Source: Phycisphaeraceae bacterium
GTDB taxonomy: Bacteria; Planctomycetota; Phycisphaerae; Phycisphaerales; UBA1924
Length of the DNA: 64,000 nucleotides
NCBI GenBank assembly: GCA_021299385.1
Contig: JAJTGZ010000003.1
Location: forward strand, 1-64,000
Direction: 5' to 3'
In this document: positions 8,949 to 45,720 of the stretch, in pieces
Layout of the letters: the number at the start of each line of letters is the position of its first letter
How positions within the stretch are numbered: position 1 is the stretch's first letter
The notes under the pieces: model-generated
What the model was told of the DNA's origin: nothing
Databases searched by the model: none
The model's input: the letters and a program-made list of their open reading frames with translations, nothing else
Program-made: the position numbers and the translations under genes

Positions 8949-8984
8949 GCGGGGGGGGTTGTAGAGTGCTAAACTGAGCGTAGC

Positions 8985-9056
8985 GCGGGCGTAACTCAGT
9001 GGTAGAGTGACAGCCTTCCAAGCTGTACGTCAGGGGTTCGAGTCCCCTCGCCCGCT
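8985..9056 (+). tRNA. tRNA-Gly (anticodon TCC)
   Basis: Acceptor GCGGGCG/CGCCCGC; ACAGC-CTTCCAA-GCTGT anticodon arm; GGTTCGAGTCC T-loop. Confidence 0.95.
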
Positions 9057-9130
9057 TTGGCTGGTCGGCACTGCGTGCCGATACAGTCAGTCGCTGCGAT
9101 CCGCTCACAGGTGCGGAGAAAGACGACGCG

Positions 9131-9160
9131 AAAGGCCTCGGGGTGGTTCCCGAGGCCTTT
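9131..9160 (+). terminator. Hairpin terminator candidate downstream of tRNA-Gly
   Basis: AAAGGCCTCGGG-GTGGTT-CCCGAGGCCTTT perfect inverted repeat, but no long T-tract. Confidence 0.55.
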
Positions 9161-9566: not shown

Positions 9567-9731
9567 CCCCAGGAAGGTGCACGTGATTGGGGCCGGTTGT
9601 GTGCCATGGTGCAGGTTTTGCTATCGGCCAACGCGGGCGCGGGATTATCGGCCAGTTGTAACGGCACAGCTGCACCAGGCTGATTGGCGGTCGTCGGCGG
9701 CTAGAGCGTGGCGTGGGTGGTGCCGATACCG

Positions 9732-10169
9732 ATGTGCATGCGTGGTAAGTGCATTTTGATTGTCGAAGACGAGGAGGCAACGGCCTTCATGCCCGCCTCG
9801 CGGCTGCGGGACCATAGTTACACAGTGGAAACGGCCGGGGATGGACGCGAGGCACTAAGCACGGCGTTGCGTGCGATTCCGGACCTTGTGATCACGGACT
9901 TTCAGCTGCCGAGTATGAACGGGCTGGAGCTGGCGGCCGCGCTGCGGGCGGAGGGGGCGACGGCGGGCGTGCCGATCATCATGCTGACGGGGCGTGGGCA
10001 CAAGGTGTCAACCGAGGTGCTGGGTGCGACGAACATCCGCCAGATGATGAGCAAGCCGTTCTCGGCCAAGGAGATCGTGGCGAGTGTTTCGTTGATCCTA
10101 ACGGGGAGCAAAGGCACGGCTGAGCGTGGGGCCGCACGACCAAACGGGCAACCGAACATCGCGGCGTGA
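9732..10169 (+). CDS. Single-domain response regulator (CheY-like receiver)
   Basis: CILIVEDEEAT...DLVITDFQLPSMNGLEL...PIIMLTGRG...MSKPFS. Confidence 0.9.
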   Translation: MCMRGKCILIVEDEEATAFMPASRLRDHSYTVETAGDGREALSTALRAIPDLVITDFQLPSMNGLELAAALRAEGATAGVPIIMLTGRGHKVSTEVLGATNIRQMMSKPFSAKEIVASVSLILTGSKGTAERGAARPNGQPNIAA

Positions 10170-10184
10170 AACGCATGCTGCAGG

Positions 10185-11634
10185 ATGAACATGCGAGAAG
10201 AACCGCCGAACATGCTGGACGCATCGACCCTGGTTGGTCCCGGGCATTCGCCGCTGGCAGAGGTTGCGCGCAGGCTGGCCGCGTTGCGGTGCGCGACTGT
10301 CGGCAAGGGTGGTGAAGAGGTCGGACGTGGTGGGTTCAGGCTGACCGACGGGCGGGGTGAGGGTGTGTACCTGACGCCGGCCGGGGGTGTGCAGGCGGAT
10401 GTTCTCTTGGTGGTCGCGCGGCAGATGCTCAGTGAAGAGGCGGAACTGGCCAGGCACAAGAGGCTGGCGAAGGGGCTGGGATATAAACTAATGCAGGCGA
10501 GTGAGCAGACGCTGGCGGTCTTCAGCGTCATCCGTCTGGGCACGACCGGCGGGAACGTGGCCCAGAACATGCAGGCGATCTGGGAGCAGGCGCACGGGGC
10601 GTTGCCCTTCGGGTGGCTCGGGATCGCTTTCAACAACACCGGCGCGACGATCGAGGCGTTGCGCGGGAGCGTGATGCTTGCGGGGAAAACTGCCAGCGGG
10701 GCCGACCTGAGCGGGCAGGTGCGTGCGTTGATCGAGGGGTGCCAAGGCTCAACACGAACGGTGATCTTTGAGCCGGGGGTCGCACCCGCTGGCAACAACG
10801 ACCAACGCGCAGATTGTGTGGGAGCCGATTACTCACAGCGGCCTTGCATTAGGGTGTCTAGTAGCCGGGGAGAGGTACATGATTGATAATGAACCAGACG
10901 TTGCCAGCTCGGAACTGCTGCTGCTGGGTGCGTTGGGGGACTTTTTAGGGACGTTCCACGAGAACGCCGCACGCTTTGCCGAGCAGCGGTCGATGAGCCT
11001 TGGGACGCTGGCGGCGCTCTCGGCGGCGATCGACGCGAAGGACCCGTACACGCACGGGCACAGCGAGCGTGTGGCGATGGTTGCGCAGTTGATCGCCCAG
11101 AAGATGGGCATGAGCGAGGCGGAGGCCGAGCGCGTCCGGATCGCCGGGCTTGTGCACGACGTGGGCAAGATCGGCGTGCCGGAGAACATCCTGTGCAAGG
11201 CCGGCCGGCTGAGCGACGACGAGTTGAAGCAGATCAAGCAGCACCCGGAGATCGGGTACCGGATTCTTGCAGATATCCCCGCGTTGCAGGACGTGCTGCC
11301 CGGGGTGTTGCACCACCACGAGCAGTTCAACGGCATGGGGTACCCGCACGCGCTGGCCGGGGAATCGATCCCGTTGATTGCGCGGATCATCGGGCTGGCG
11401 GACACGTTTGATGCGATGAGTTCCAGCCGGGCGTATCGGCAGGCGCTGCCGATGGAGAAGGTGCTCGCGGAGATCAAGCAGTGCGCGGGCACGCAACTGG
11501 ACCCGGCGGTGGTCGAGGCGTTTATGACGATTGATCTTTCAGGGTACCACGCGTTGCTGCCGGGGCAGGAGCAGTCGGTGGAGACCGCCAGCAAGAACGG
11601 TCCTGCAACAACGGATGCAAGGGCCGCAGCGTAA
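10185..11634 (+). pseudogene. HD-GYP domain protein with N-terminal sensory domain, split by an apparent frameshift near 10775-10800
   Basis: ORF 10185-10886 (frame 0) continues as ORF 10768-11634 (frame 1): VIFEPG / SHPLATTTNAQIVWEPITHSGLALGCLVAGER; HD-GYP motifs HDVGKIG and HHEQFNGMGYP intact. Confidence 0.75.
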
Positions 11635-11699
11635 AGCCGCGTTGAGGGGTTGGCTGACGGGCTGCGCGAAAGGACGACCGGATCGATCAAGCAAGGGAC

Positions 11700-12140
11700 T
11701 GAAGAATGGACTGGGCGAGCACACGCCGTAGACTGCTGGGGATCGACGCCGGCCTCGCGTAAGGCATGACGGCCGTGGTCGCCCCGGCCGTCGTGCTGCC
11801 AATCCTGCGCGACAGGGCGAACGCGCACTCGCTGGTTTTTCGGCATACCAAGGCCCTTAGCCGGGGGATAAGGCCAGCCAGGTCGAGCGCGGGCTGCGGG
11901 CCTCGCTGACCGAGAGCACCGATCACCTCTCACAAGCGCGTGGGCAACGTCCGTCGAGATCAAAGCGTCCCGGCAGGCGGAGGTCTCCGCCTGGCTCAGG
12001 TTCGTCGCCGACATGCACCGCAAGCACCCCGATACCGCGATTATCGGCTTCCGCCTGACAGACTCCGCGGCGGACAAAACACGCACCCCAGGCCCGGGCG
12101 AAAACAAGGCCGGGGCAGTGCGCACCGTGTTATAGCGCAA
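11700..12140 (+). pseudogene. Degenerate coding-like region (possible PilM/PilN-like remnants)
   Basis: Short protein-like stretches in different frames separated by stops: RRLLGIDAGLA*, GDKASQVERGLRASLTESTDHLSQAR, WATSVEIKASRQAEVSAWLRFVADMHRKHPDTAIIGFRLTDSAAD. Confidence 0.3.
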
Positions 12141-12320
12141 CCTTCCAACCTAGCCAGCACTCTTGGGTCGTGATGCTCAGACAGTAACCAACGCAACGGA
12201 TGTGTAAACCGATAACTACTCAGAAGTTACACGCACACACTCACGGAGGTGGGCATGACTGCCGATGCACTCCGGCAATATCGCTTCGGCATCAATCACA
12301 CGCCCTCATGGAGATCAGAC

Positions 12321-12806
12321 ATGGTTCGTGCCCTTCCTTATCGTCGATCAGGTTTCTCACTCATCGAACTGGTCATCGTTGTCGTGATCATCGGCATCTT
12401 GGCCGCCGTGGTTATCCCGCGCATGAGCCGCGGTGCCTCGGCGGCGGCTGAGTCGTCGCTCGCGGCGAACCTGGTCACCCTCCGCGGCGGCCTCGAGCTC
12501 TTCTACACCGAGCACGGCAACACCTACCCCGAACTGTCCAAAATAAACGAAGCTCTCTCCCAGTTCAGCAACGAGACGGGCGACAAGTTCAACCCAACCA
12601 AGAGCGTCAGCGACGGAATCGTCTACGGCCCCTACGTCCGCACCATGCCCGCACTCCCCGTCGGCGCAAACAAGGGTAAAACGGCCTTTGTTGCTTCCCT
12701 CGGCAATGACGGCGGTTGGGTCTACAGCGCCACCAACGGCACCATCACCGCCAACTGCGCCGACAACGAGGTCGATGGTCGCGGCGTCAGGTTCAACACT
12801 TATTGA
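12321..12806 (+). CDS. Type II secretion/type IV pilin-like major pseudopilin
   Basis: Prepilin motif RSGFSLIELVIVVVIIGILAAVVIPRMS; ATG at 12321 (alternative 12249). Confidence 0.88.
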   Translation: MVRALPYRRSGFSLIELVIVVVIIGILAAVVIPRMSRGASAAAESSLAANLVTLRGGLELFYTEHGNTYPELSKINEALSQFSNETGDKFNPTKSVSDGIVYGPYVRTMPALPVGANKGKTAFVASLGNDGGWVYSATNGTITANCADNEVDGRGVRFNTY

Positions 12807-12846
12807 TTGCCAGACGCTCACCGCGTCAGCACACACAAGAGCAAGC

Positions 12847-12869
12847 AAGGGGGCACTACGCCCCCTTTT
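12847..12869 (+). terminator. Rho-independent terminator candidate after pilin gene
   Basis: AAGGGGGC-ACTAC-GCCCCCTTTT. Confidence 0.7.
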
Positions 12870-12885
12870 CACATGGCCCCACGCT

Positions 12886-14718
12886 CTACCTCGCCGCACG
12901 CAGGTCCACCAGCACCCCGGCCGCGTGCACACCACCATAACTATCAATCTTGGGCTCGATGACCGCATCGACCTTCATCCCCCGGGCCAACTTGCCGGCC
13001 TGCTCCCCCCACCGCCACGCCGTCGCTGAGACCCGCCGAACGCCATCGCCAAGGCTCAACTCCAGGTGCGGGCCGCTCGCGCCGAACCGCCTCGGCTCAC
13101 TGGCCAGCGTTACCCCCCGCAGCAGCAGTTTGATCGCCGGGTTCCCACGCCCGAACGGCTCCAGGCTCAGCAGCCGGCGCACCGCCGGCACCGTCAGCTC
13201 GCTCGGCGAGCACTCGGCGTCGATCCGCAGCGCGTGCGTCAGGCGGTCGGCCTCGATGTGCGCGTTGGCGTGCGCCGTAAAAGCCTCGACAAACGCCGGG
13301 ATGCTCTCCTTGTGCAAGGCCACACCCGCGGCCATGTCGTGCCCGCCGAACCGCTTGAGGTGCACCGCGCACGCCTCCAGCCCCGCGTGCAGGTTGTACC
13401 CCTCGATACTCCGGCACGACCCGTGCGCCTCGCCCGTCTCGGCGTCGATCTGCATCAAGATCGTCGGGCGGCAGAAACGCTCGACCAGACGCGAGCAGCA
13501 GATGCCCACCACACCCGCGTGCCAACGCACGTCCGCCAGCACAATCGCCCGGCGGTCGCTGCCGGTCATCCCCTGCTGCCCGGCCAGCTCGCACGCCTGC
13601 TGCACAATCTCCGACTCAACGCCCCGGCGCTCCCGGTTGGCCGATTCGAGCTGCTCGGCGATCTCGGCGCACCGCGGGCCGTCGTCGCTGGTGAACAGTT
13701 CAATCGCGTGCTTGGCGTGGTCCATCCGCCCGCAGGCGTTCAGCCGGGGGGCCAGGCGGAAGCCCACGTCATACTCGCCAACCTTCTCGCCGGACAACCC
13801 GCAGGCATCTACTAACGCCCGCACGCCGATAAACGGCGAGTGCTTCAGCCGGGCCAGCCCGTGCTTGGTCAGCACGCGGTTCTCGCCGACGAGCGGCACG
13901 ATATCCGCGATCGCCCCCAACGCCGCCAGCGCCAGCAGTTCAACAAGCAGCGTCCGCATCGCCGGCACAGCCCGGCCGTCTGCGCCATCCGCGCTCGCCA
14001 GTCGCCACGCCAGCTTATACGCCACCCCCGCGCCCGAGAGTTCCCCGAATGGATACGCCGAGTCGGGCCGACGCGGGTGTACCACGGCATACGCATCGGG
14101 CAGGTCCGCCATGCTCGCTGGTGGGTTGTGGTGGTCGGTGATGATCAGGTCAACCCCGCACCGGCGGGCGACCAACGCCGGCCCGACAGCCGTGATCCCA
14201 CAATCGACACTGACGATGACCTTGGCCCCATGCCCGGCAAGCAGCTCGATCGCCTTGCCGTTGAGCCCATACCCCTCCTCCAACCTGTGCGGCACATACG
14301 TGCGCACGTCCGCACCCGGCAGGATCGCCTTGAGCGTCCGGTAGAGGATCGCCGTACTGGTGATGCCGTCGACGTCATAGTCGCCGTAGATGACTATTTG
14401 CTCATGGTCGCGCAGGGCGCGCAAAAGGCGTTCGGTCGCCTTGTCAATATCCGGCATCAGAGCCGGGTCGATCAGCCCGGTGAGCTTCGGCTCTAAAAAC
14501 GCCTCCGCCGCGGCTGGCTCACCTAACCCCCGCGCCGCCAGCACCCGCGAAACCACCCCCCCACTCAACCCCGCCGACCCCGCCACCCCCTCGCGGATGA
14601 ACCACCGCCTGGTCATCCCCCGGCCAGCAGGCACCATCCTCCCCCCCGCCTCCACGCCAGACTCTAGAACCTCCGTGTTCACGCCCCGAGCGTATGGCCG
14701 TGTCAGAACCCAAGGCAC
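12886..14718 (-). CDS. recJ: Single-stranded-DNA-specific exonuclease RecJ
   Basis: IVIYGDYDVDGITSTAIL; DLIITDHHNPP; DHH/DHHA1 organisation (FGGHDMAAGVAL). True start may be internal. Confidence 0.93.
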   Translation of the reverse strand: MPWVLTRPYARGVNTEVLESGVEAGGRMVPAGRGMTRRWFIREGVAGSAGLSGGVVSRVLAARGLGEPAAAEAFLEPKLTGLIDPALMPDIDKATERLLRALRDHEQIVIYGDYDVDGITSTAILYRTLKAILPGADVRTYVPHRLEEGYGLNGKAIELLAGHGAKVIVSVDCGITAVGPALVARRCGVDLIITDHHNPPASMADLPDAYAVVHPRRPDSAYPFGELSGAGVAYKLAWRLASADGADGRAVPAMRTLLVELLALAALGAIADIVPLVGENRVLTKHGLARLKHSPFIGVRALVDACGLSGEKVGEYDVGFRLAPRLNACGRMDHAKHAIELFTSDDGPRCAEIAEQLESANRERRGVESEIVQQACELAGQQGMTGSDRRAIVLADVRWHAGVVGICCSRLVERFCRPTILMQIDAETGEAHGSCRSIEGYNLHAGLEACAVHLKRFGGHDMAAGVALHKESIPAFVEAFTAHANAHIEADRLTHALRIDAECSPSELTVPAVRRLLSLEPFGRGNPAIKLLLRGVTLASEPRRFGASGPHLELSLGDGVRRVSATAWRWGEQAGKLARGMKVDAVIEPKIDSYGGVHAAGVLVDLRAAR

Positions 14719-25982: not shown

Positions 25983-28364
25983 CTACGGGCCCGACCCGGC
26001 CAACCCCTCCGCCCGCGCCCGCTGCGCGTCCGTCAGCCCGCGCGTCAAAGGGTCATACTTCTGCAAGGCGTCCACTCGGATCACCTCCCGCGCCACCCGT
26101 GCCGCATTCTGCTGCTCTCCGAGGCGGGTGTAAACGTCCATCAACGCGATGAGGTGCATCGGCGCGGTTGGGTCTTGTCGGTGCGCAACCTCCAGATGCT
26201 CGGCCGAGCGCGCAAGAAGTGGGCGATCGGCTGGCCCATCCCCAGCCGAGGAATACAGCACACCAAGCCAGGCGTTCTGCCCGACGCTCAGGTTCGTTGC
26301 ACGCGTCGCCCCCAGCGGCGCGACCCCCGGCACCTTGCCCGATGCAAGCGACAGCATCCCCATGTGCACCGGCGAGCTGGCGACGACCGGCCCGCGCACC
26401 ACCACATCGGCCAGCACGAGCGCCGGGGCTGAGAGTTCAGGTGGCGCGCCCATACGACCGGCCGTGGCCAGCAGGCGCGACGCCTCCCGGCGGGTTGGCC
26501 AGTCGGGGTACTGGGCCAGTTCCGCCGCCGACCGCACGAGCGCAGCAAACTTCTCCTGCCCCGAACCCTCGCGGGCATTCCAGACCTGCCATGCCGTCCT
26601 CTCCAGCGACCTCTGCCAGGGCAGCACCCGCCCCAAGGCGACCGACCCGAGCACCCCGATCAGGAGAACCCCGACAACCCCAATCACCGGCCTGATCCAC
26701 CCGGCGGTCCTCGCCGCGACAACGCCGCCGGTTTGCGCCGGCACCCACGCCGACGCGGCGATCAACGCCACGATCACCCCAACGCTCCCAGGCCAGGCGA
26801 AGGTCTGCTCGATCTGCCCGTGTACCGCCAGCACCGCGGCCCCTGCAAAGAGCGCCAGGCGCACGACCCCGTCCCGGCCGCCTGTTACCAGCCGTGTAAC
26901 CGCGACCCCAAACAGGCACCACACGACCAGCCCACCCATGCGGGCGAGGATTTCCTCCAAGGTCAACACCAAGGGAACATGGGCCAGGCTCAGAACCGTG
27001 GCGATTGCTGCAATGAGGCAGACCAGGCGGACGGTGAAGGCAGGTTGCTCGTGCGATTTGTTCAGAGCGGAGGTACCCGCTTTGTGGGCGATTACAGACG
27101 CCGTGCCCTGGCCGGCATCGAGCATCCATCGGAGGGCTAGGGCGCACCAGGCCAGGCCCAGGAAGCCGAGGGTGGCCATCCAATCCAGGAAGACGGAGTG
27201 AACGCTGGCAACGTCCTCGGTGGCGAGCGGGTTTTTGTAGACGATGTAGGCTTCCTTGAATCCTGCGGTGCCTGTGCCGAGGAAGGAAGTTACAGCCGGG
27301 AGGTCTGACCCCGCTGGGTTCGCCTGCCTGAGGATGGAATCGACGAAGATGCGCCAGGCACCATCAAAGTAGAAGGAGCGGAAGAGGAGAGATCGCTCGC
27401 CGAGGTGGTCGCCGAGCATCCCGCGCAGCAGCACTGCCGCGATGGCCACGATGCAGAGGGAGGGGATAAGCACGGGCAGGGAACGCACTACCCACCCCCG
27501 CACCCCGGGCGATGCACGCTTGGCGATCCAAATCAGCACCCCGGCGATGGCCAGACCGAGCACCAGCACCACCCACCCACCCTTGCCCCCGGCCATCGCC
27601 ACGCCGGTGATCGAGGCGAGCAGACCAAGCAGTGGAGCAACCACCAACCAACGCCCAAGCTCGGCCCGGCGTTCGATCGCAACGAGCGCCAGCACGCTCC
27701 ACACAGCGGCCATCGCGGCCATCAGGCTGGCGTAGATGTTCGCCAAGCCAAACCACCCCGTCGCCTCTGCCTGCATCAGTCGGCGTTGGTAACTGCGGGC
27801 CATCCCGGAGTCGGGCAGCCACCCCTGGGCCGCGAGGATCTGCTCCCGATTCTTCTGATAAGCCTCGACGAGCATCGGGTGCTCAATAAGCAGTTCGACG
27901 GCACCCTTGATCGCCAGCACGCCAACAAGCCCGGCAAAGAGCGCCAGCACGACCACCCGCACAGTTGGCTCCCGAGCCGAGAGTGCTAAACCGACGCCTA
28001 CGACCATCGCGCTGAGCCATGAGAACCCGATGCGCAACTCGGCAATGCTCGCCGCCGGGTGCAACGCGTGCACCAGCAGGGGGAGCGCCCCGATGAGCAG
28101 CAGGCCAACCATCCCCCACCACCTGCGGCCCAAGGCATGACCAACACCCGCGCAGGCCATCAGCACCACGCCGCCGAGCATGCTGACGAGGTCGTAGACG
28201 ATGCTCCAGAGTGGTGTCAGGCCCGTGCCCAGGCCCATCGGGCGGGTTGTCAGCGGGTCGCTGTCCCAGAACGGCATGGGGACCGACGGGAGCAGGGCCT
28301 TGGCCAGGAGTGGTGCCAAGGCCAGCAGCAGACCGGCGGAGATCCAAAGGGTGCGCCTGGGCAT
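25983..28364 (-). CDS. O-antigen ligase/Wzy-like polytopic membrane protein
   Basis: Multiple TM helices; FLGTGTAGFKEAYIVYKNPLATEDVASVHSVFLDWMATLGFLGL; C-terminal TPR-like helical tail. Confidence 0.75.
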   Translation of the reverse strand: MPRRTLWISAGLLLALAPLLAKALLPSVPMPFWDSDPLTTRPMGLGTGLTPLWSIVYDLVSMLGGVVLMACAGVGHALGRRWWGMVGLLLIGALPLLVHALHPAASIAELRIGFSWLSAMVVGVGLALSAREPTVRVVVLALFAGLVGVLAIKGAVELLIEHPMLVEAYQKNREQILAAQGWLPDSGMARSYQRRLMQAEATGWFGLANIYASLMAAMAAVWSVLALVAIERRAELGRWLVVAPLLGLLASITGVAMAGGKGGWVVLVLGLAIAGVLIWIAKRASPGVRGWVVRSLPVLIPSLCIVAIAAVLLRGMLGDHLGERSLLFRSFYFDGAWRIFVDSILRQANPAGSDLPAVTSFLGTGTAGFKEAYIVYKNPLATEDVASVHSVFLDWMATLGFLGLAWCALALRWMLDAGQGTASVIAHKAGTSALNKSHEQPAFTVRLVCLIAAIATVLSLAHVPLVLTLEEILARMGGLVVWCLFGVAVTRLVTGGRDGVVRLALFAGAAVLAVHGQIEQTFAWPGSVGVIVALIAASAWVPAQTGGVVAARTAGWIRPVIGVVGVLLIGVLGSVALGRVLPWQRSLERTAWQVWNAREGSGQEKFAALVRSAAELAQYPDWPTRREASRLLATAGRMGAPPELSAPALVLADVVVRGPVVASSPVHMGMLSLASGKVPGVAPLGATRATNLSVGQNAWLGVLYSSAGDGPADRPLLARSAEHLEVAHRQDPTAPMHLIALMDVYTRLGEQQNAARVAREVIRVDALQKYDPLTRGLTDAQRARAEGLAGSGP

Positions 28365-29760: not shown

Positions 29761-30726
29761 CTAGGGCTTTTGCCACTGCCCGTTGCGGAAGACGCGCAGC
29801 GACGCGTCCACCTGCATCACCTCGGCCAGGCGAGCCGGGTCGGGGTCGATGAGGGGCTGGCCGAGGTCGGCGAGTGTTTGCGCACCCCACGAGCCATAGA
29901 CCCCCCGCAGCAGGAACGACTCGGCCCTGATCTGTGCGAGCAGTTCATTGCCAGATAGTTGCGGCCCCGGGTTGCCGCCACAGGTTGGGCAGAGGCGCCC
30001 TACACCGTTGCGTTGGACGACGCGGCGGTTGCCGCAGGTTGGGCAGCTTGGCCATTCATCGAGCCAGCGTTCGATGCGTTGGCTTGCGCGGTCTGGTGCG
30101 CCGTCGGACAAAAGGTTCTCGTACCCCTCCAGCAGGGTCCACACGCCCGGCCTGGCGAAGGTTGCGCGTGCGCGTTTGCCCTCGCCGGCGCGGAGTTGGC
30201 CAAGTGCCGTGCTCAGGTCGATCGCGGCCTGGTCTGGCCCGATGGCTGGTACGACGGCGACACCCTCGCGCAGGCCCGTCTGCGCCTGACCTGCCGGCTC
30301 GACGAGGTGGGCGATGGCCCGCAGCCACGCCCGCCGCTCTGCACGGGGCGTGAGTGCCGACAACCCCAGGCACGCGCTGGCGGCGAGCGGTCGGCCGCTG
30401 CCATCTGCACGCGGCGTGGCGCGGTCGATCTCAAAGGCGAGGACGTACAACCGCTCGGCCAGTTGCCTAGCCGGGCGCACGTGCCGCTCCAGTGCGACCT
30501 CCTCGGCGAGCAGGAAGTAGCCCATTGGGTCGCTCGGGTTGAGTTGTTCAAGCCGGGCGTTCAGCCCGGGCAGGGGGATGGCGTCAAGGCCATCCTGGCT
30601 TTGCCTGGCCGAGCCGGCACCGACGAGGAGCACGCCCGCGAGCAGCGCGACCAGCGCCAGCACCGCCGACGCGCGTGCGGCCAGGGGTTGGGTGCGTGCG
30701 CCGGTGCCATGCCGATGCGTGTGCAT
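29761..30726 (-). CDS. Membrane-anchored/exported unknown protein with zinc-ribbon-like CPTCGN...CPTCGG
   Basis: N-terminal TM; two CPTCG knuckles; start codon overlaps upstream stop (TGATG). Confidence 0.65.
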   Translation of the reverse strand: MHTHRHGTGARTQPLAARASAVLALVALLAGVLLVGAGSARQSQDGLDAIPLPGLNARLEQLNPSDPMGYFLLAEEVALERHVRPARQLAERLYVLAFEIDRATPRADGSGRPLAASACLGLSALTPRAERRAWLRAIAHLVEPAGQAQTGLREGVAVVPAIGPDQAAIDLSTALGQLRAGEGKRARATFARPGVWTLLEGYENLLSDGAPDRASQRIERWLDEWPSCPTCGNRRVVQRNGVGRLCPTCGGNPGPQLSGNELLAQIRAESFLLRGVYGSWGAQTLADLGQPLIDPDPARLAEVMQVDASLRVFRNGQWQKP

Positions 30727-33593
30727 CAGAGCTGCTCCCCGAGGCGGATGGACCAGAGGCGCAGCATGGCCTCCTGCGCCACACGCATTTGCACTGCGGC
30801 ACTTTTGGCCGAGCGACGGTCGTGGTCCATCGTCAGGATGATCGACTTGATCTCATCGATGCGTGCGGGCTTCTCGCTTGCGACGATCGCAGAGAGGAGC
30901 TCGACGCACCCGACCTGCTCGGCGGCGAACGTCTGCACCACGCCCTGGGCGACCGTCAAGCGTGCGGCCCGGCGGCCCTTGATCTCCGCCAGCGACACCG
31001 GCGCGTTGACAGCGGAGGGCAGACGAGAGGCCTCCTCCCACAGGACGTTAAAAAGCGTGCTGGCCGCTCGCACCGAGAGGGGCCCGGCCTCGTCGGGTGA
31101 TACGTCGCGTGCCGGCTCGCCGGCCATGACCAAGTACGCATCGGCAAAGACCGAGGCGATCTGGTCCATCCCGGCCAGCGGGTTCTGCGCCGCGGTGATC
31201 GACAAGATACGCTCGACGAGCGCCCGCCGATAGTGCAGCACCCACTGCCCGCTGGCCGGCGAGACGACCGAGCCTTGCGCCATTGACGCCAGGAAGATCG
31301 CGTTGCGCAGCGACCGTGGGGCCTTGGGAAAGGCCTCGAGCACCGCGTTGACCATCTCCGGCTCGTTGACGTAGCGCATGGCCGCGGCCTGGGCCGCGCC
31401 GCGGAGTTCAGTGCCGCCCGTGAGGGCCACATCGGCCACAACGCCCGCGTCGACGGGGCCGATACCCCCCCCGGCCAACTCGGCGAACCGGGCCAACCTT
31501 GCTCCGACGCCCTTGCTCTCGATAAGGTACTTGATCGCCCAGGCACCATCCCCGGCCTGCGCGGTCGAGATCTCCCGCGCCGTCCCCCCCGCGTTGGTCG
31601 TGGCGATCGAGGCCAGCCCCGCGGCGGGGACCGACGAGAGCGATGCGGGGACGACCTCACCACGCGCCCGCATCGCCGCCGCCCGGCACAACTGCGCCAG
31701 CAGCGCCCCGGCCGTCGCCTGCTCGATATCCACTGTTGCCGATGCCGAGAGCGACAGGATCGAACGCGCCCCGTTGAGCCAATCGGCCTCGGCGCCGGCG
31801 GTGGGGCCGCCAGATGACAACTCCCACGCCCCGGCAAACTGCACGCGCACGTTCTCACGCTCGATCGGTGTCGCCGTCGGGGGCAGGACCATCGAGGCGT
31901 CGATCCCCGACGCGCCGGTTCGGCTGGCGAGCACCTGCGTGATGGCGTGCACGTCGCCAAGAGATATCCGCGCATCGCCGATCCACGCGACGATGCGGGC
32001 TCGCGAGGGGTCCCCCGGGCGGTAACGCATCTTGCTGAGCACGCGAGCGACAAAGCGGAACGCCACGGGGCTTTCCAGCAGGTCCGGCCCGAGCACCAGC
32101 ACACGCTCGAGCGCGGCCAGGGCCACCAGCTGGCTTTGCCGCTCGGCCTCATCGCCCGTCAAGGCACCGCCGACGCCGCGTGTGATCGCCTCCCACCACT
32201 TGTCGGCGGCCTCCTCGGCCGCGGCGGCACGCGAGGCCAACTCCGCCGGGCCAAGGCCGCTTGTGTCGCCGCCGATGAGGCGGACAGGCATCCCGCTGGC
32301 CGCGAACTCAACACCGGCTGCAAAGCCTGGCCCGGCACGCCTGGAGCCGAAGACCTTGCCGATGATTTTCTCCCTCGCGGCGACCACGCCCGGCGGCAAC
32401 TCACGCTCACGTGCAAGGCGCGCCAGTACGCCCGCGCCGCCGGTCATCGGCCAGATGTCCGCCGAGGCGATCGGCTTGGCCGCGTCGGTCAGCGGCTCAG
32501 CGACCAGCATCGCAAAGAGCTCGCCGGCAACCTCCGGCGTGGTGCAGCGGAACATCCCCTCGACGATCGACTCGACCGCCGAGGTGCGGGCGGGCAACTC
32601 AAGAACGGGCCACCAGTGCAGGAACACCTGGACAGGTCCACGCAAGGCCTGCAACCCCACCGACGTACCGTCGAACCCCTTGACCGCCGACTCAATATCC
32701 CTGACAAACACGGCGGAGTTTGGCGGGCCATCGCCCACCCTTGACACAGGAATTGCTGGGCCTTCACCAAGGGCCGGCGCGGGGGGCGTCAGGGGTGGTG
32801 CAGGGGCAGTGTTTTGCCCACTCGGCGTGGCCGGCACGGCGGGCCTGGGCGAGCTGGCAGCGCTGGTGCGATAGATCAACCACGCCGAGCCGCCGACGGA
32901 CAGGAGCATCACCGCCGCGAGCGCGAGCCAGAGTTTGGTTGTGGACGCCTCGCGGTGCTCAGCGTCTGTGCGTGCTGCGGGGGCGTAACCCGGCGCAACG
33001 TGCTCTGCGTGGCCTCGCTGCGGCAACCGCACGGCCCCGGCCATTGCGTCCTCAACGCCGGCCGTGCGTGGCCGCTGCCCGTGCAGGAGCGCAACGACGG
33101 CCTCGGCCGGCACGCCGTGCAGGGCCGCGACCATCAGCGCACGTCGTAATCCCTCGGCCCCGGGCTGTGCCGTTACCGCGTGCAGGACGTGCTGAGAAAA
33201 GTCCGCCGAGTATGCTGGCTGCTCGCCGATCGCGTCCCCTGCGCGGGCCGCGCCATCCGCGGCACCGGGCGATTGCACGAGCGCGGCGATCGGCAGGTGA
33301 GGCTCGCCGGCGATCTCGGCTTCGAGTGCATCGCTCCACGGCGCGCCGGGGCCGTTGATCATCTGCGCGGCGATCCCCTTGAGCACCGCGCGCAGGGCTT
33401 GCACATCCGGCCCGCTGCCGTGCGGGTGCATGTTCAGTTGAGCGAGCTTTGTGCGGAGTGCCAGCACCACCTCGGCCCGCTCGGCGCCGGGGCTGAGTTG
33501 CAGCATCGTCTCGGGCCAGTCGGGGTCAAAGACCGTCGCTGCCTGCGAGCCGAAGAACCACAGCAGCATCGCCCGCGCCCGGCTTGGTGTCAC
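30726..33593 (-). CDS. Large single-TM protein of unknown function
   Basis: 955 aa ORF; TM KLWLALAAVMLLSVGGSAWLIY; overlaps neighbours by 1-4 nt. Confidence 0.7.
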   Translation of the reverse strand: MTPSRARAMLLWFFGSQAATVFDPDWPETMLQLSPGAERAEVVLALRTKLAQLNMHPHGSGPDVQALRAVLKGIAAQMINGPGAPWSDALEAEIAGEPHLPIAALVQSPGAADGAARAGDAIGEQPAYSADFSQHVLHAVTAQPGAEGLRRALMVAALHGVPAEAVVALLHGQRPRTAGVEDAMAGAVRLPQRGHAEHVAPGYAPAARTDAEHREASTTKLWLALAAVMLLSVGGSAWLIYRTSAASSPRPAVPATPSGQNTAPAPPLTPPAPALGEGPAIPVSRVGDGPPNSAVFVRDIESAVKGFDGTSVGLQALRGPVQVFLHWWPVLELPARTSAVESIVEGMFRCTTPEVAGELFAMLVAEPLTDAAKPIASADIWPMTGGAGVLARLARERELPPGVVAAREKIIGKVFGSRRAGPGFAAGVEFAASGMPVRLIGGDTSGLGPAELASRAAAAEEAADKWWEAITRGVGGALTGDEAERQSQLVALAALERVLVLGPDLLESPVAFRFVARVLSKMRYRPGDPSRARIVAWIGDARISLGDVHAITQVLASRTGASGIDASMVLPPTATPIERENVRVQFAGAWELSSGGPTAGAEADWLNGARSILSLSASATVDIEQATAGALLAQLCRAAAMRARGEVVPASLSSVPAAGLASIATTNAGGTAREISTAQAGDGAWAIKYLIESKGVGARLARFAELAGGGIGPVDAGVVADVALTGGTELRGAAQAAAMRYVNEPEMVNAVLEAFPKAPRSLRNAIFLASMAQGSVVSPASGQWVLHYRRALVERILSITAAQNPLAGMDQIASVFADAYLVMAGEPARDVSPDEAGPLSVRAASTLFNVLWEEASRLPSAVNAPVSLAEIKGRRAARLTVAQGVVQTFAAEQVGCVELLSAIVASEKPARIDEIKSIILTMDHDRRSAKSAAVQMRVAQEAMLRLWSIRLGEQL

Positions 33594-36418
33594 GGCGCAC
33601 CCCCGCCGGTGCCCTTGCCAGCATCGCTGACGCCCAGGCCCGCCGCGAGCTTGATGATCTGCTCATGCCACGGCGAAGGCCCTGTCGGGTGCAGGACCAG
33701 ATGCTGGCGGATAGCCGTCGTCGCGGCGACTGGGTCGGTCGTCGCCAGCACGCGCAGCGAGTTGAACTTGGCCTGGAACCACTCCTGAGCACCCTCAGGC
33801 AGACCGCTGGCGAGCGTGCGCCAGCACTCGCCAGCGGTTTTCATGTCCCCGGCTGATTCGCTCAACACTGCCAAGCGTTGCAAACTGCTCCCCAGCCCGG
33901 GGCGGAAGGCCAGCACCGCGCGGTCGAGCGTCATGGCCGTGTCGCGTGCCGACTGCTCCTGCGCCTGCCGCCAGAGCACCGCCGACGCGCCAGCCACGCC
34001 CCCGGCGACAGTCGCCACACGTGCCTCGGCATACTTGCCACGTTCGGGGGCGATCACCTCCAGCAGCGCAAGCCCGTGCTTGACGACCCGCCTGGCCGGC
34101 TCGATGCTCTCTTTGCCCTCGGCCACAACGGCGTTGAGCCTGCGCTCGGCGTCCTGCAGCAGTGCCGTGCGCACGGCGACGTGGTAACGCTCGACTGCCA
34201 CACGCCGCTCGGCCGGGCCGCTCTGCGCATCCCGCGCCCGCGCAGCAAGTTCATCGGCAAGCCGCTCGGCCTGCACAACATCACCTTTAGCCAGCAGCAA
34301 CTGGATGCGCCGCAGCGTCAGTTCGTCAGCAACGGCCGAGGCGTCCTGCCCGCTCGCATTGATTGCCTTGTCCACCGCATCGAGCACACCCTCGGCACGC
34401 GTGGCGTCGGGCGTGGCCCCTGAGAGCAGCGCGTCGAGCATCTGCCGGGCCGTCAGCAGCATCCGCTCGGCAGCCTGGCCCGCCTGCGCCTTGTCAGGCC
34501 CGAGCGCACGCGTCTGGTCGATCGCCAGCAGTTCATCGGCGATGCGCAAGAACCTGGCCGAGGCATACGCACGCTCGGCCGCTGGCGCCGCGCGGTAGAG
34601 CCGATAGAGCACCTTGGCTAACTGCCTGCGCGTCTGTTCATACAACGCAGAGCCTCTCGGCACGCTCTGCAGCACCCGCACCGCGCCCTCGTCGACGCGG
34701 TCCTCACGCATCAACTGGCCTAATGCAAGCGTCGCGGCACGGTCCCCCTGCGGGTACTCGCGGATGAACAGCTCTGACAGTTGCCCCAGCCGCTCATCGA
34801 TCGCGGCTTTGTCCGTCGCCGAGAGTTCCGCACGAGAAGCCCGGCTGAGCGTGCCGATCGCCAGCCAGAGAGCCTCCTGCGCATCCTCCCGGTCCGCCAG
34901 GGCGCGGAACCGCTCGCTGGCACGGGCGAACAACTCCGCCGCGTCGCGCAAACGCCCGGCCATGAACGTCGCTCGCCCCGCCAGCAGCGTCGCCTGCGCA
35001 AACTCACGCGTGAAAAAGCCAACGTCCGGCTGCTGCCCTGTGGTCAGCAGCACACGCGCGGCATCACTAAAAGCATTGACCACCGCCGGGTCCGTTGATG
35101 GTTCATCGGCCGCGGCACCCGCTTGGGCGGCGTGCCGCTGCTGCGCCTCGTCGAGCATCTGGTGCCCGCGCACATAGATCGCCACAAACCCCGTATCGCC
35201 GAGCACCACGGCCCCAAACCGGCGTGCGATCTCAAGCACCGCGCCGATCTCGCGGCGCACCACCAGATCACCCACGGCCAGTTGCCCGATCGCCAGCGTG
35301 GTCGGGCGCAGGTCCTCGCTCTTTTCTTCCAGCGCCAGCGACGCGATCACCCGTGCCGTGCCCGTCGGCAGGGCGATGATCCCCGGCTGCCCGGGGACCT
35401 CGGGCAGTTTCAGCACGCCCGTGCCGCCGGGCTTGCGCGCCTCGCGCACGTTGCGATCGATATCACTCCACCGCCCCGCCCCGGCCAGCACGATAACACG
35501 CCACGCCAGCCACTGCCCGGCGATGCTGTCGTGCGTGCCGCGCTCTTGCCGCAGCGCATCGAGCCACGCCAGGGCTTCAACGTCCTTGCCCAACACCCCC
35601 ATGCACAGTGCCGTCCCCGCTGCGGCGCGGGCGACGTGCTCATACTGGAAAGGCTCGGTGGACATCCCCTGCGGCATCCCCTGCCCCGGGGTTATCTGCA
35701 AGATCAGCGCAAACGCACGCACCCCATCGCTGGCCGCTTGCTTATTGCCCGTCAGCAGCGCGGCGTAGTAACTCGACCAGCCCAGGTAGTAACTAGCCGT
35801 CGATCGCCAGCGGCGCACGTCGGCGAGTTCCAACTCCAGCGCCGCCGCGTCCGCCGCTGGGTTGTTGTCCAGTGCCGCCTGCACCTGCTGCTCGCGCCGG
35901 GCGAGGTCTGCCAGCACCACCTCAAGCCTCGGGCGGATCGCGTTGATTCCCTCCATCGCCTCGGCAAGCGCGGCCGCGCCCGAATCACCACCGGCCCTGA
36001 GCCTGGCACGCTCGGCAGCGTCCTCGGCCACCAAGTACCGCTCGCGCAGCAGGTTGATCTTCAGTTCAAACGCCTTCGCCTGCGGGGCCGAGTTGAGGAG
36101 TTTCTCCGCCGCGGCCACAAGCTCCGCACGCGCCGCCGCGCCCTTGGCGTCCGCGATCGCAGAGGCATAAAGCTTCCCCAGCCGCTCGACGATCCGCTCC
36201 TTCTCCGCGCCCTGGACGACCTTCAGCCGGGCCGTGAGTTGGTCGATCAGCAGCGACCGCAGGCCCATCGCCTGCAGATAGTCGGCCACACGCTCGGACT
36301 CACTCGGCGGCGCGGCCTTGCGCACCTGCGCGTGCACCGGCTGGCACAACGCCAGCACCACCCCGGCACACGCCAGGGGCACGCCCGCTCGACCTGTCCG
36401 CCTACTTGCCCGCAACAT
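33590..36418 (-). CDS. Large exported helical-repeat (TPR-like) protein
   Basis: 942 aa ORF; signal peptide VPLACAGVVLALCQPVHAQ; repeated Ala-rich helical pairs. Confidence 0.7.
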   Translation of the reverse strand: MLRASRRTGRAGVPLACAGVVLALCQPVHAQVRKAAPPSESERVADYLQAMGLRSLLIDQLTARLKVVQGAEKERIVERLGKLYASAIADAKGAAARAELVAAAEKLLNSAPQAKAFELKINLLRERYLVAEDAAERARLRAGGDSGAAALAEAMEGINAIRPRLEVVLADLARREQQVQAALDNNPAADAAALELELADVRRWRSTASYYLGWSSYYAALLTGNKQAASDGVRAFALILQITPGQGMPQGMSTEPFQYEHVARAAAGTALCMGVLGKDVEALAWLDALRQERGTHDSIAGQWLAWRVIVLAGAGRWSDIDRNVREARKPGGTGVLKLPEVPGQPGIIALPTGTARVIASLALEEKSEDLRPTTLAIGQLAVGDLVVRREIGAVLEIARRFGAVVLGDTGFVAIYVRGHQMLDEAQQRHAAQAGAAADEPSTDPAVVNAFSDAARVLLTTGQQPDVGFFTREFAQATLLAGRATFMAGRLRDAAELFARASERFRALADREDAQEALWLAIGTLSRASRAELSATDKAAIDERLGQLSELFIREYPQGDRAATLALGQLMREDRVDEGAVRVLQSVPRGSALYEQTRRQLAKVLYRLYRAAPAAERAYASARFLRIADELLAIDQTRALGPDKAQAGQAAERMLLTARQMLDALLSGATPDATRAEGVLDAVDKAINASGQDASAVADELTLRRIQLLLAKGDVVQAERLADELAARARDAQSGPAERRVAVERYHVAVRTALLQDAERRLNAVVAEGKESIEPARRVVKHGLALLEVIAPERGKYAEARVATVAGGVAGASAVLWRQAQEQSARDTAMTLDRAVLAFRPGLGSSLQRLAVLSESAGDMKTAGECWRTLASGLPEGAQEWFQAKFNSLRVLATTDPVAATTAIRQHLVLHPTGPSPWHEQIIKLAAGLGVSDAGKGTGGGAP

Positions 36419-36815
36419 AACTCACCCGCGTAAAGCCCGCGTCCCGCGCCGCCTGCAACGCCGCTGCGGCCCACTGCACCAGCACGTCATCATCCACACG
36501 CACAACAACCCCAGGCTCTTTGGGCAGTTCACGCAAGATCGCCGTCAGCGAGGCCTGGTCCTGCACCACCCGGCTGCCGAGCGCAAACGACGCGCCGGCC
36601 CCCCGCGCTGACACACGCAGCACCTGCGAGGAGAACTCACCGCCGCTGCCCGCGCCACGCTTCTCAGCCGAGAGCGTCGCCGGCAACTCACCCTCGGCTG
36701 GCGCGAGCGTCCCGGCGATGATGAAGTACATCAGCATGAACAGCACCACATCGATCAACGCGATCAACGGCAGCGGGGCGACACTCGTGTCTTTACGTGC
36801 CCGGCGGAGGTTCAC
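36402..36815 (-). CDS. ExbD/TolR-family biopolymer transport protein (second copy)
   Basis: PLPLIALIDVVLFMLMYFII TM with conserved Asp; GTG start 36815 overlaps upstream stop (GTGA). Confidence 0.85.
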   Translation of the reverse strand: MNLRRARKDTSVAPLPLIALIDVVLFMLMYFIIAGTLAPAEGELPATLSAEKRGAGSGGEFSSQVLRVSARGAGASFALGSRVVQDQASLTAILRELPKEPGVVVRVDDDVLVQWAAAALQAARDAGFTRVSYVAGK

Positions 36816-37258
36816 TGCATGCCCTCCACCTTGCTGCCCTGCGTCGCAAGATGCCACGTCCGCAGCCCCGCGCGGGCCAGCTCCAACGCCAGGTTGTTCA
36901 GGTGCAGCGCCGGCGCGTTGCGGTCGGCACGCACCGTCAACTGCACATCGCTCTTGCCCGGCCCGCCCGAGGCCTGCACCTCACGCCGCACGTCATCGGT
37001 AAACTCCGCCACCGTCAGCGCCCTGCCATTGACCGCTCGCAGCGTCCCGTCCTTGAGCAGGTCCACAAGCATCGCACGCGTGCTCTCGGCCCTGGGGGCC
37101 TCACCGGCCTGATTGGGCAGCTCCATCTCCGCGCGCATCGACTGCTGGAATTGTGAGCCCATGACAAAGAACGTCAGCAGCAACAGCGTGATGTCGATCA
37201 TCGCCGTCAGGTCAAACCCCGCTTCCTCGCGCACCCGGAGTTTTTTGCGAAAGTTCAT
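36812..37258 (-). CDS. ExbD/TolR-family biopolymer transport protein (first copy)
   Basis: FDLTAMIDITLLLLTFFVMGSQF; VQLTVRADRNAPALHLNNLALELARAGL periplasmic domain. Confidence 0.9.
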   Translation of the reverse strand: MNFRKKLRVREEAGFDLTAMIDITLLLLTFFVMGSQFQQSMRAEMELPNQAGEAPRAESTRAMLVDLLKDGTLRAVNGRALTVAEFTDDVRREVQASGGPGKSDVQLTVRADRNAPALHLNNLALELARAGLRTWHLATQGSKVEGMQ

Positions 37259-37281
37259 GCGTGTGCTCGACTATTGACCGC

Positions 37282-38034
37282 TCAAGCCGCCCCCGCCGAC
37301 CGCGCAACTCCCGCCCTGGCCGCACCCTTGGCCGCTACCCCGGCCGGCGCCGCCAGCCCGCTCATGATCTCCTCGGCCACGTCGCCGACCTCCGAGACAA
37401 GCCGGTCGGTCCTGCGCTTAAAGATCATGTACGCAAACGTGCACGGGATCGCCACGATCAAACCCTCGGCTGTCGTCACCAGCGCGACGGACATGTACGC
37501 CGCCAGCTGCTCGTTCTTTGCCGCCCCACTCCCGCCGCCGAGGGTTGCAAACGCACCGATCATCCCGCCGACGGTCCCCAGCAGACCGAGCATCGGGCCA
37601 AGGGCCGCGATCATCGATATGCCGTGGTTGATCCGCTCGAGCCGGTCTAGCTCCCGTGCGCCCGCCTCCTCCAGCGCGGGCCGCAACTCCAGCAGCCCGA
37701 ACTGCGACCTGCCCACCTTCGCCAAACCCCCGGCGATCACACGCGATAGGAAACTGTCGTTCTCAGCCGTCGCGCAGAACGACGGAATCTCATCTACACG
37801 CCTCTCACCGACCAATCGGCGCAGCCCCTCAACAACATGATCGGGCGCGAGGCTTGACCGCCGCAGCAGCACGATGTTGGCGATCATCAGCGCCACCGCC
37901 CCCATCGAGACGAGCACCAGCACATATGAGATCACACCCCCGGCGTGGATGTACCCCAGCACCGACTTGCCGCCCGCACCCTGGCCACCCTCGGCGGCCA
38001 ACGTCCATGCCATCAGACCCATCTCATGCACCAT
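37282..38034 (-). CDS. MotA/TolQ/ExbB proton channel family protein
   Basis: NHGISMIAALGPMLGLLGTVGGMIGAFATL; ALVTTAEGLIVAIPCTFAY. Confidence 0.93.
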   Translation of the reverse strand: MVHEMGLMAWTLAAEGGQGAGGKSVLGYIHAGGVISYVLVLVSMGAVALMIANIVLLRRSSLAPDHVVEGLRRLVGERRVDEIPSFCATAENDSFLSRVIAGGLAKVGRSQFGLLELRPALEEAGARELDRLERINHGISMIAALGPMLGLLGTVGGMIGAFATLGGGSGAAKNEQLAAYMSVALVTTAEGLIVAIPCTFAYMIFKRRTDRLVSEVGDVAEEIMSGLAAPAGVAAKGAARAGVARSAGAA

Positions 38035-38099
38035 GCGTCATCCTTCTTGTATTGACTCGACCGCCCAACTGATACGACCTTGCTCCCGTACAACCCACC

Positions 38100-39284
38100 C
38101 TACGGCATCTGCACGCCCGCCGCGTCGGGGTACTTTGCCTGCAACTCCTTGTTGACCAGTTCCACCGGCTCGCCGAGCTTGACCAGTTCGCCGCGGGCCT
38201 CCACCAGCGCACCAGCGGCCAGCCCGGGCACCTCCTCGGCAAAGAGCGCCGGCACGGTCAATATCTCGACGATCCCCTCACGCTTCTGTGCCGGGTCCAC
38301 CTCACGCAGCAGCGAACGCCCGATACCCAGGTGCAGCCACGCTCGCATCCAGAGCGTGTCGAGCATCTCCGGCTCCTCGGCCTGCACCTCGCGGTTGAGC
38401 TCGGCCTTGGTCAACCTCTCCAGCCGCTGCCGAAGCCGCCCCCTTGCGCCCTGCCTGGCCGCATCATCACCTGCACGCGCGAGCACGATGTCAACGACCA
38501 TCTGCGCTACGTCCCCGCTCGGCTCACCATCGGGCTTGAACTCCGCACCGGAGACCTCAAACGCCGCCGCGGCCTGGTATGCCCTCACCACATCCCGCAC
38601 CGGCGAGCCAGCCGGCGCCGAGCCGAGCCGGGCAAACTCGCTGCTGCCGAGCATCCCCGTCAACGCGGGCGTCGCGATCACCGGCCCAAATATCGGCGGC
38701 AGGTGCGGGCACAGCCCGGTGCCGCCGTCCACACTTGCATCCCCCGCGCTCAGACCCCCGGCTGACCGATCCCCAATCCAGATCACACCCTTGTTCAGCG
38801 CATCCTCGACGATCACAGGCCGCTCGCTCGCCGCGTCGAACCAGGCGAGCCACGCCAGCGTCGCACCCGTCTGGCTCCCCCGCGCCAGCCGAACTCGCAG
38901 CACCGCTTCCGCAGTTGCAAGTCCCGTTGGCCCCACCAGCGTCCCCTCTTGCGCCATCTTCTCAATCAACGGCTCAAGGGCCTCCCCGGCCATCGGCACA
39001 TCACCCCGGTCCACGCGCGACACCCCACGCATCAACTCAAGCCCCCGGGCCATCGACCCCTCGCAACCCGCCACGTCCGTCTCGCGCACCAGGTGCCAGG
39101 AGATCAACCGGTCCGCCTGCCCATCGACCTTGACGAGCACCCCCCCGTTCTGCGCCGAGACCGCACCCCGCAACTCCCCCGCCTGCCCACGAAGGCGGAC
39201 AAATGTCCCCTCGGCATTGGCGCCGCTCGCACCCACAACAAGCAGGAGAACCCCCGCCAGGACCGCCGAGTGCGCCCTGTTCAT
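38100..39284 (-). CDS. Exported protein of unknown function
   Basis: Signal peptide SAVLAGVLLLVVGASGANA; ATGA overlap with VWA gene. Confidence 0.7.
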   Translation of the reverse strand: MNRAHSAVLAGVLLLVVGASGANAEGTFVRLRGQAGELRGAVSAQNGGVLVKVDGQADRLISWHLVRETDVAGCEGSMARGLELMRGVSRVDRGDVPMAGEALEPLIEKMAQEGTLVGPTGLATAEAVLRVRLARGSQTGATLAWLAWFDAASERPVIVEDALNKGVIWIGDRSAGGLSAGDASVDGGTGLCPHLPPIFGPVIATPALTGMLGSSEFARLGSAPAGSPVRDVVRAYQAAAAFEVSGAEFKPDGEPSGDVAQMVVDIVLARAGDDAARQGARGRLRQRLERLTKAELNREVQAEEPEMLDTLWMRAWLHLGIGRSLLREVDPAQKREGIVEILTVPALFAEEVPGLAAGALVEARGELVKLGEPVELVNKELQAKYPDAAGVQMP

Positions 39285-40300
39285 GGCCGTTTCCCCCCGG
39301 GGGTGATGAACGTGTACGTCCCCTCGCTCATCGACGCGATTTTGCGCATCATCTCCTCAGAACTGTTGTCCATGAGGCAGATGCCGTGGATCGGCACATT
39401 ACGACCGCCGCGCATCAGCGACCTGATCTTCTCGGGCACGTCGTTGTTGAACTGCCCGTCGGTCATGAAATAAATCGCGTCCGGGCGGGGCCGCAGGTTC
39501 AGAACGGTCAGGAACCCGCCGAACGGCTCGGTGCCACCCGCGGCCGTCAGGCCCTCAATCTCGCGCAGGGCGGTCTGCTTGTTTTTGCTGGTGGCCTGTG
39601 CATATTTGCCCCCGAGCATGAAGTTCCGCACCCCGCTCTCGAATGGAAGGATGACAAACTGCGCATTTTCCGGGAGTTTGTTGATCGCCGACGACAACTC
39701 CCGCTTGAGCATCGCCAACTTTTCACCCTCCATCGACCCCGAGACATCGACGATGAACCCGAACCGTCTGCCCCGCGCCTCACGCCCGAAAAAACTCGTC
39801 CCGCCCGCCCCCGACCCGCCCGTCCCCTCGCCGACGCCGATCCCTGTGCCCGTGCCCGACCCGCCCAGCCCCGTCCCCGCGTTGCCGCCGACATCACCCG
39901 CGTCGGGCAGCGCGTTCCCGCCCGCGGCCTCGATCACCGGCATCGGTGCCAGGTCAACGCTGTTCTTGAGTTCCTCAACCCCCGGCGTTTCAACGGTCAG
40001 CACCCCCTCGTTCAGGGAGGTCAACTGCGACTCATCGACGACCGCCACATCGAGCGGCAGCGCATTACCCACCCCGCCACCACCCCCACCCCCCCCGCCA
40101 GCAAGGACCAAACCCGCGATCGAGAGCAAAATCGCGTGCAACACCACCGAAGCCCCCATCCCGATCACCGCCGCCCGCTGCGAAACCACCGACCAACCCT
40201 TGTGGGTGGGCGCACCGAGCAGCTCCGGGCCGAGGGCACCACCCTCGGTCACCTCGTGCCGGTTGTTGGCATCCGCCCCAGGCTGCACGGGATCATCCAT
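39281..40300 (-). CDS. Membrane-anchored von Willebrand factor A domain protein
   Basis: Single N-terminal TM, Gly-rich linker, VWA domain with MIDAS FIVDVSGSMEGEK ... FMTDGQFN. Confidence 0.88.
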   Translation of the reverse strand: MDDPVQPGADANNRHEVTEGGALGPELLGAPTHKGWSVVSQRAAVIGMGASVVLHAILLSIAGLVLAGGGGGGGGGVGNALPLDVAVVDESQLTSLNEGVLTVETPGVEELKNSVDLAPMPVIEAAGGNALPDAGDVGGNAGTGLGGSGTGTGIGVGEGTGGSGAGGTSFFGREARGRRFGFIVDVSGSMEGEKLAMLKRELSSAINKLPENAQFVILPFESGVRNFMLGGKYAQATSKNKQTALREIEGLTAAGGTEPFGGFLTVLNLRPRPDAIYFMTDGQFNNDVPEKIRSLMRGGRNVPIHGICLMDNSSEEMMRKIASMSEGTYTFITPGGKRP

Positions 40301-44843: not shown

Positions 44844-45464
44844 TCACCTGTCCCGCCAGACCTTTTTGATCTCCTGGCTGCCGATCCAGACCTTCTCGTT
44901 GCTCTCGAGGTCCACGATCTCTAGGTTCACCTTGAAGTAACTGACCCCACCCTTGCCGTCGAGCGTCCGGGGTTTGTCGTCCATGATCCGCCCAATAACC
45001 ATGAAGTCGGCCCCGAGTTCATACTGCATCCGCTTGCGCGTCTCCGGCCGGCTCCACTCCTGGCCTTGGGCACGCTCGTCACGCACCGGCAGCCGCTGGT
45101 CCTTGTCGGCCACGAAGCGCACCAGCCCGCTGTTGATCAACTCACGTTCGATGTCGGTGGTGATGAGTTTGGTATCGATGTAGTCCTGCGTCGCGTTGAA
45201 GACCGGCCCGACGATCACCGCCGGGCGCTTGCCGCCGTTCTCGTTCTTGAAGTTGTTGATCCACGGCCTGCTCAGCGCGTCCTGCACCATCCCCTGATAC
45301 ACCTGCCGGGCGTCAGAGTCGTTGAACCTGTAATCCACGTCCACCGTCTGCTGCGGGTCAACCCGGCTGACCTCACGCACCGGCGCGCACGCCGAGAGGG
45401 CGAGCGCCGCTGCCACGCTTGCCGCGAGAACCGAAAGAACTTTGACTCTAGATGTCGTGCTCAT
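44844..45464 (-). CDS. LpoB-like lipoprotein (penicillin-binding protein activator family)
   Basis: Lipobox LSACAP; VDYRFNDSDARQVYQGMVQDALSRPWI; ELGADFMVIGRI. Confidence 0.75.
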   Translation of the reverse strand: MSTTSRVKVLSVLAASVAAALALSACAPVREVSRVDPQQTVDVDYRFNDSDARQVYQGMVQDALSRPWINNFKNENGGKRPAVIVGPVFNATQDYIDTKLITTDIERELINSGLVRFVADKDQRLPVRDERAQGQEWSRPETRKRMQYELGADFMVIGRIMDDKPRTLDGKGGVSYFKVNLEIVDLESNEKVWIGSQEIKKVWRDR

Positions 45465-45720
45465 GGTTACTCCTCTGTTGGCAAGCGTATTCGCCACGCC
45501 GGCACGGCAGATGCACCAGATAATCGCCGAAATGCGCTAACCCCTCCTCGGAGGGGATGTGCTGGGGAGGGACAAGGGTGGGGTTGACACACCCCTGTGC
45601 CACCAAACCACCTACGCCAATGAAAGACAGAGGAGGTTCGCGGAGGATGCGGAGTGCAGCGGAGGAACGCGGAGAAGAAATCGATTAGAAGAGGCCCATT
45701 AAGAAGCAGCGAGACCAACC

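Follow-up and report, generated by a model that had tools for sequence, protein, structure and literature searches.

The window analysed here is a stretch of 64,000 nucleotides of contig C59 from a 2.63-Mb, 95%-complete MAG of the Phycisphaerales (Planctomycetota), whose nearest named relative found was the Phycisphaerales MAG PN19_bin_20 (ExbB identity 67%). Eight open reading frames on the minus strand form an operon (Table 1). The frames and coordinates claimed in a preliminary description of this DNA proved to be real, and its junctions were confirmed as -4, +65, +23, -4, -17, -4 and -1 nt, in transcription order. The divergent gene upstream of the operon is pyrH in 35 of the 36 loci where pyrH was found, and this neighbourhood was taken as a fixed position rather than a functional tie. 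The gene rbfA was considered as a ninth member and rejected, as no homologue was found beside the operon in any relative. Elsewhere in the window are a gene for an LpoB-like peptidoglycan synthase activator near the operon (44844-45497; PF13036, E 1.4e-32) and, downstream of rbfA, a gene for a 793-aa polytopic protein that matches no Pfam family at E <= 1e-5 (25983-28364).

Table 1. Genes and features of the operon, in window coordinates
Feature	Coordinates	Strand	Evidence
Predicted VWA force transducer with a short N-tail in the cytosol, a single TM, a linker rich in Gly and a VWA domain at the C-terminus (residues 182-331)	39281..40300	(-)	Pfam VWA_3, E 8.4e-14; alignment of 37 homologues
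TonB/TolA-like SxxxH of VWA TM helix, S51-V-V-L-H55	40136..40150	(-)	37-homologue alignment
EXP394: conserved, signal-peptide-like N-terminus, no family	38100..39284	(-)	Alignment
ExbB/TolQ-type proton channel	37282..38034	(-)	PF01618 (MotA_ExbB), E 6.8e-27
ExbD-1	36812..37258	(-)	PF02472, E 1.4e-15
ExbD-2, GTG start at 36815	36402..36815	(-)	PF02472, E 3.6e-9
P942, predicted exported TPR superhelix	33590..36418	(-)	AF2, profile, Foldseek
P955, predicted bitopic inner-membrane protein	30726..33593	(-)	AF2, N-terminal profile, hhalign
Predicted degenerate J-domain of P955	33306..33593	(-)	AF2, N-terminal profile, hhalign, PF00226
P955 TM helix	32859..32945	(-)	AF2 helix 217-245; hydrophobic sequence
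ZNR: signal-peptide-like N-terminus, CxxC...CxxC zinc ribbon	29761..30726	(-)	Alignment of 20 homologues
ZNR zinc-ribbon cysteines C228, C231, C246, C249	29980..30045	(-)	Alignment

Conservation of the operon was followed with P942 as bait in 61 genomes drawn from the window's own genome, genus, family and order. One copy each was found in 44 of the 61 genomes (that of G019 split across two contigs), and within the window's own family P942 is present in 34 of 36 relatives. The 42 loci read, window included, comprise 31 with all eight genes, six cut by contig ends and five without exbB-exbD1-exbD2; the eight families were assigned by iterated profiles, and gene order was counted in the 36 untruncated loci, the window among them. 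VWA-EXP394-P942-P955-ZNR occur in this order in all 36, and all eight genes follow the same order in 31; the five remaining loci hold VWA-EXP394-P942-P955-ZNR contiguously. The preliminary description had asked whether the order might not be conserved in related genomes: it is kept in every untruncated related locus, save that the motor genes are absent in five. The 4-nt overlap of P942 with P955 is kept in 36/42 loci, a 17- or 20-nt overlap of ExbD-2 with P942 in 27/35 and the 4-nt overlap of ExbB with ExbD-1 in 22/33, these being counts in which start codons were picked by a heuristic biased towards the reference start. Order and overlaps conserved to this degree are far from chance.

Homology of P942, P955 and ZNR weakens to 20-50 bits in distant members of the class. 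The order VWA-ExbB-ExbD-ExbD-P942-P955-ZNR is unchanged in G112, where EXP394 is missing, and the same order is found in G076 with an additional unrelated ORF beside the exbD genes; the P955-like protein of G076 was identified from its length, place and N-terminal sequence. A shorter core of motor genes and a large exported protein was read in four further genomes (G040, G194, G134 and G074), three of which also have the VWA gene. In one relative (L146 of G042, 9268-13880), EXP394 and P942 read as one 1294-aa ORF at a locus without motor genes, possibly an EXP394-P942 fusion with a further motor loss.

For EXP394, P942, P955 and ZNR of the window, no convincing family was found in Pfam/NCBIfam. 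In a few relatives EXP394 gave scattered weak TPR matches, and against the PDB it gave no match. P942 has a signal-peptide-like N-terminus and was modelled by AF2 as nearly all-helical (mean pLDDT 90.8); its profile matches consensus TPR proteins (best match 1.6e-18) and Foldseek matched it to TPR proteins, so that it is predicted to be an exported TPR superhelix. P955 (mean pLDDT 83.6) is modelled with a TM at about residues 217-245 and a helical solenoid at 293-950, and with N-terminal helices 39-55 and 62-80 flanking His56-Pro57. Its N-terminal profile matches DnaJ J-domains in the PDB (best E 1.1e-4), nearly all further matches being J-domains as well; hhalign of the N-domain against four J-domain sequences gave 87.6% probability, and 5 of 36 family members individually match PF00226 at E <= 1 (best 3.7e-5). 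The His-Pro of the HPD motif is mostly kept and the Asp is lost (H56-P57-H58 in the window), for which reason the domain is called degenerate. Foldseek with full-length P955 gave no match at E <= 0.001; what it returned were generic ARM/HEAT solenoids. On these models P955 is predicted to be an inner-membrane protein whose degenerate J-domain lies in the cytosol and whose helical solenoid lies in the periplasm, with a single TM between them. The four cysteines of ZNR are conserved in at least 90% of 20 homologues. In two relatives (L148 and L149) P955 and ZNR are a single ORF from which the ZNR signal peptide is gone, which places both on the same side of the membrane.

Residues of the proton path are fixed in the motor: Thr154 and Thr188 of ExbB are invariant in 33/33 sequences, as is the TM Asp in ExbD-1 (35/35) and in ExbD-2 (35/35). 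The alignments thus show one ExbB and two distinct ExbDs with the predicted proton-path residues retained. Among the genomes without motor genes at the locus, G015 carries an operon-type ExbB-ExbD1-ExbD2 elsewhere, its ExbB nesting inside the operon clade. No operon-type ExbB was found in the genomes G018, G022, G033 and G007; these hold a second ExbB-ExbD-ExbD set, orthologous to a set on contig C26 of the window genome, with no SxxxH or VWA protein adjoining it. In a quick P942 tree these four cluster with one motor-bearing row among them, which indicates one or two motor losses. Because the VWA proteins of motor-less loci retain SxxxH, the sequences suggest that those of the four genomes use the second motor, a cross-use drawn from co-occurrence in four genomes only. 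The C26 set itself (L038, 8378-10162) stands alone, with no neighbouring transducer noticed, and has orthologues in at least six relatives. A third ExbB of the window genome, on contig C79, was rejected as a partner of the operon; it adjoins an OmpA-domain protein and the two are most likely MotA/MotB. Another ExbB-ExbD pair, in G007 (L154, contig C333, 5139-12966), lies between two proteins of about 1,080-1,100 aa that look exported.

The preliminary description had named the VWA protein as a partner of ExbBD. The VWA domain is real (VWA_3), and what was missed is the transducer role indicated by its only TM helix, where nothing but the Ser and His of SxxxH is invariant; both are present in 37/37 homologues by alignment (a plain regular expression misses 4 of the 37 owing to N-terminal ORF extensions). 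SxxxH is kept also by the VWA proteins of the five loci without a local motor, and lies within a hydrophobic segment in 22 of 23 further VWA matches. The rest of SHLS, its Leu and second Ser, is not kept in this helix: Ala prevails where Leu is expected, and there is no fixed second Ser. In the VWA domain, the metal-site core DxSxSM is found in 37/37 and TDG nearly always. Since SxxxH of the TM is invariant, the VWA protein itself is identified, from its sequence, as a putative TonB/TolA-type transducer. A second, shorter cassette of VWA-ExbB-ExbD-ExbD and a 789-aa exported protein, with its own SIALH TM, was seen in one genome (L156 of G012, 7252-12795), so VWA machines can be duplicated within one genome.

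In 2025 Williams-Jones et al. predicted VWA force transducers for PVC bacteria and for further phyla (PMC12204202). Their genes often lie downstream of a TPR gene, tolQ and two tolR; many of them carry the full SHLS motif, the Ser and His of SxxxH being the residues by which TonB and TolA dock on their motors, and gliding was suggested as a function (PMC12204202). The operon shares with them a TonB/TolA-like TM with a conserved His, a C-terminal VWA head after a disordered linker, one tolQ-like and two tolR-like genes with an adjacent TPR gene, and occurrence in PVC bacteria. It differs in that the VWA gene is first rather than last, in the addition of conserved P955, with its J-like domain, and ZNR, and in that the motor has been lost or relocated in part of the members. 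The eight-gene operon is an expanded, reordered variant of this family, and the earlier claim of an undescribed system has to be narrowed: for PVC bacteria, VWA transducers beside a TPR gene and tolQ/tolR/tolR are already published (PMC12204202), while the expanded variant seems undescribed, no description of it having been found in the literature covered, open-licence PMC papers. A gene order like the published one was seen in Kiritimatiellae (L220), and Verrucomicrobia (L178) and Planctomycetaceae (L177) have clusters related to it. Profiles made from the operon detected no homology to the neighbouring genes of the Kiritimatiellae or Verrucomicrobia clusters, and none was detected by profiles between P942 and the published PVC TPR gene in the scanned loci of these two groups. 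In L178 (Verrucomicrobiales, 5997-13960), ExbB-ExbD-ExbD is followed by a VWA protein without TM SxxxH and then by a 967-aa exported-looking protein; this variant may couple differently.

The operon has the motor class and TM docking motif of the Ton system (ExbB-ExbD-TonB), from which it differs by a VWA domain in place of the TonB C-domain, two ExbD genes rather than one and the lack of a receptor. With Tol-Pal it shares the motor class, a single-span transducer, a periplasmic TPR protein and a possible envelope role; unlike Tol-Pal, it has no TolB or TolA C-domain and has a VWA head and two ExbD types. The preliminary description saw no TonB, Tol-Pal or TonB-dependent receptor in the window, and this extends genome-wide: family searches of the window genome detected no TonB_C, TonB_2, Plug or TolB_N, single absences being soft because the MAG is 95% complete. 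In the 12 genomes searched, window genome included, TolB_N is absent from all and Plug from 11, the window genome among these. Strong TonB_C and Plug matches are confined to G055, in which a true Ton system (TonB and TonB receptor) coexists with the VWA operon; G022 gave one borderline TonB match. OmpA-domain proteins number three per genome in 11 of the 12 genomes. In the window genome one adjoins MotA, and so is most likely MotB, and another is a short protein that may be Pal-like.

The operon probably encodes a trans-envelope force-transducing machine, and the earlier reading of a pmf-energised envelope system is in that sense probably right. In the proposed mechanism, an ExbB pentamer with a putative ExbD-1/ExbD-2 axle would use proton flow, and the VWA protein would dock at the edge of the pentamer through Ser51/His55. 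Its linker would span the periplasm, and its head would grip and pull a partner in the periplasm or outer membrane, the likeliest being P942 itself or something held by P942. P955 and ZNR would form an inner-membrane scaffold, the J-like domain linking the machine to a cytosolic factor. As to its job, envelope upkeep (outer-membrane/peptidoglycan coupling), in the Tol-Pal niche where no TolB was detected, is the best candidate, at somewhat below an even chance. More specific, and rather unlikely in full, is a Phycisphaerales-specific Tol-Pal replacement in which a VWA transducer that can be driven by one or the other of two ExbB-ExbD-ExbD motors ties the inner membrane to an outer-membrane TPR cage, and to the cytosol via a membrane-anchored degenerate J-domain protein. 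Counting against the force-transducer explanation, the Leu and second Ser of SHLS vary, neither an outer-membrane barrel nor a lipoprotein could be recognised among the operon's products, no close P942 homologues were found in order families f5 and f6, and the possibly Pal-like protein means that the envelope role may be filled otherwise.

Other readings start from the same parts. The Agl-Glt machine of Myxococcus has one ExbB and two ExbD (AglR/Q/S), several exported TPR proteins and the bitopic GltG, with a cytosolic signalling domain, FHA plus TonB-like (PMC3169522); the operon likewise has one ExbB, two ExbD, an exported TPR protein and a bitopic protein with a cytosolic domain. A surface machine of this kind, whose motor drives a TPR-rich envelope complex while the VWA head acts on moving adhesion or track parts in gliding or surface transport, draws on this parts list, alike in outline (PMC3169522), and on the gliding proposed for VWA transducers (PMC12204202). 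It is nevertheless unlikely: no Pfam match to a GltG-type FHA/TonB protein, a TonB C-domain or a barrel was found among the eight operon proteins, which have a VWA head and a J-like domain instead; the window genome has a probable MotA/MotB pair; and its occurrence as a single copy in nearly every member of the family speaks for housekeeping. The TonB-like TM and motor would also suit an importer in which large substrates pass an unrecognised outer-membrane channel that draws its energy from the VWA protein, with the TPR proteins as adaptors in the periplasm, but the TonB receptor plug is absent in 11 of 12 genomes, the operon has no transporter or binding protein, and G055 keeps its Ton system separate, which leaves the importer quite improbable. 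Similarly improbable is a type 9-like secretion or assembly motor powering the passage of exported substrates handled by the TPR and J-like proteins. Client handling would be a fitting task for a J-like domain and for large TPR/solenoid scaffolds, but the operon has no recognised secretin or barrel family, and with the HPD Asp lost, Hsp70 stimulation by P955 is unlikely. A chance or lateral operon, in which the ExbBD works with another transducer encoded elsewhere and is simply co-transcribed with the VWA gene, would fit the absence of motor genes from the locus in five genomes; with SxxxH invariant even in motor-less loci, and order and overlaps fixed across families, this is very improbable.

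Most diderm bacteria are assumed to energise the outer membrane via TonB or TolA. The force-transducing machine proposed here is widespread, single-copy and fixed in gene order in bacteria mostly without detected TonB or TolA. Its putative transducer can be identified by two invariant residues, and the natural losses of the motor are usable as experiments. The newly predicted class of VWA transducers would thereby gain a complete and defined list of parts, along with partners that can be tested.
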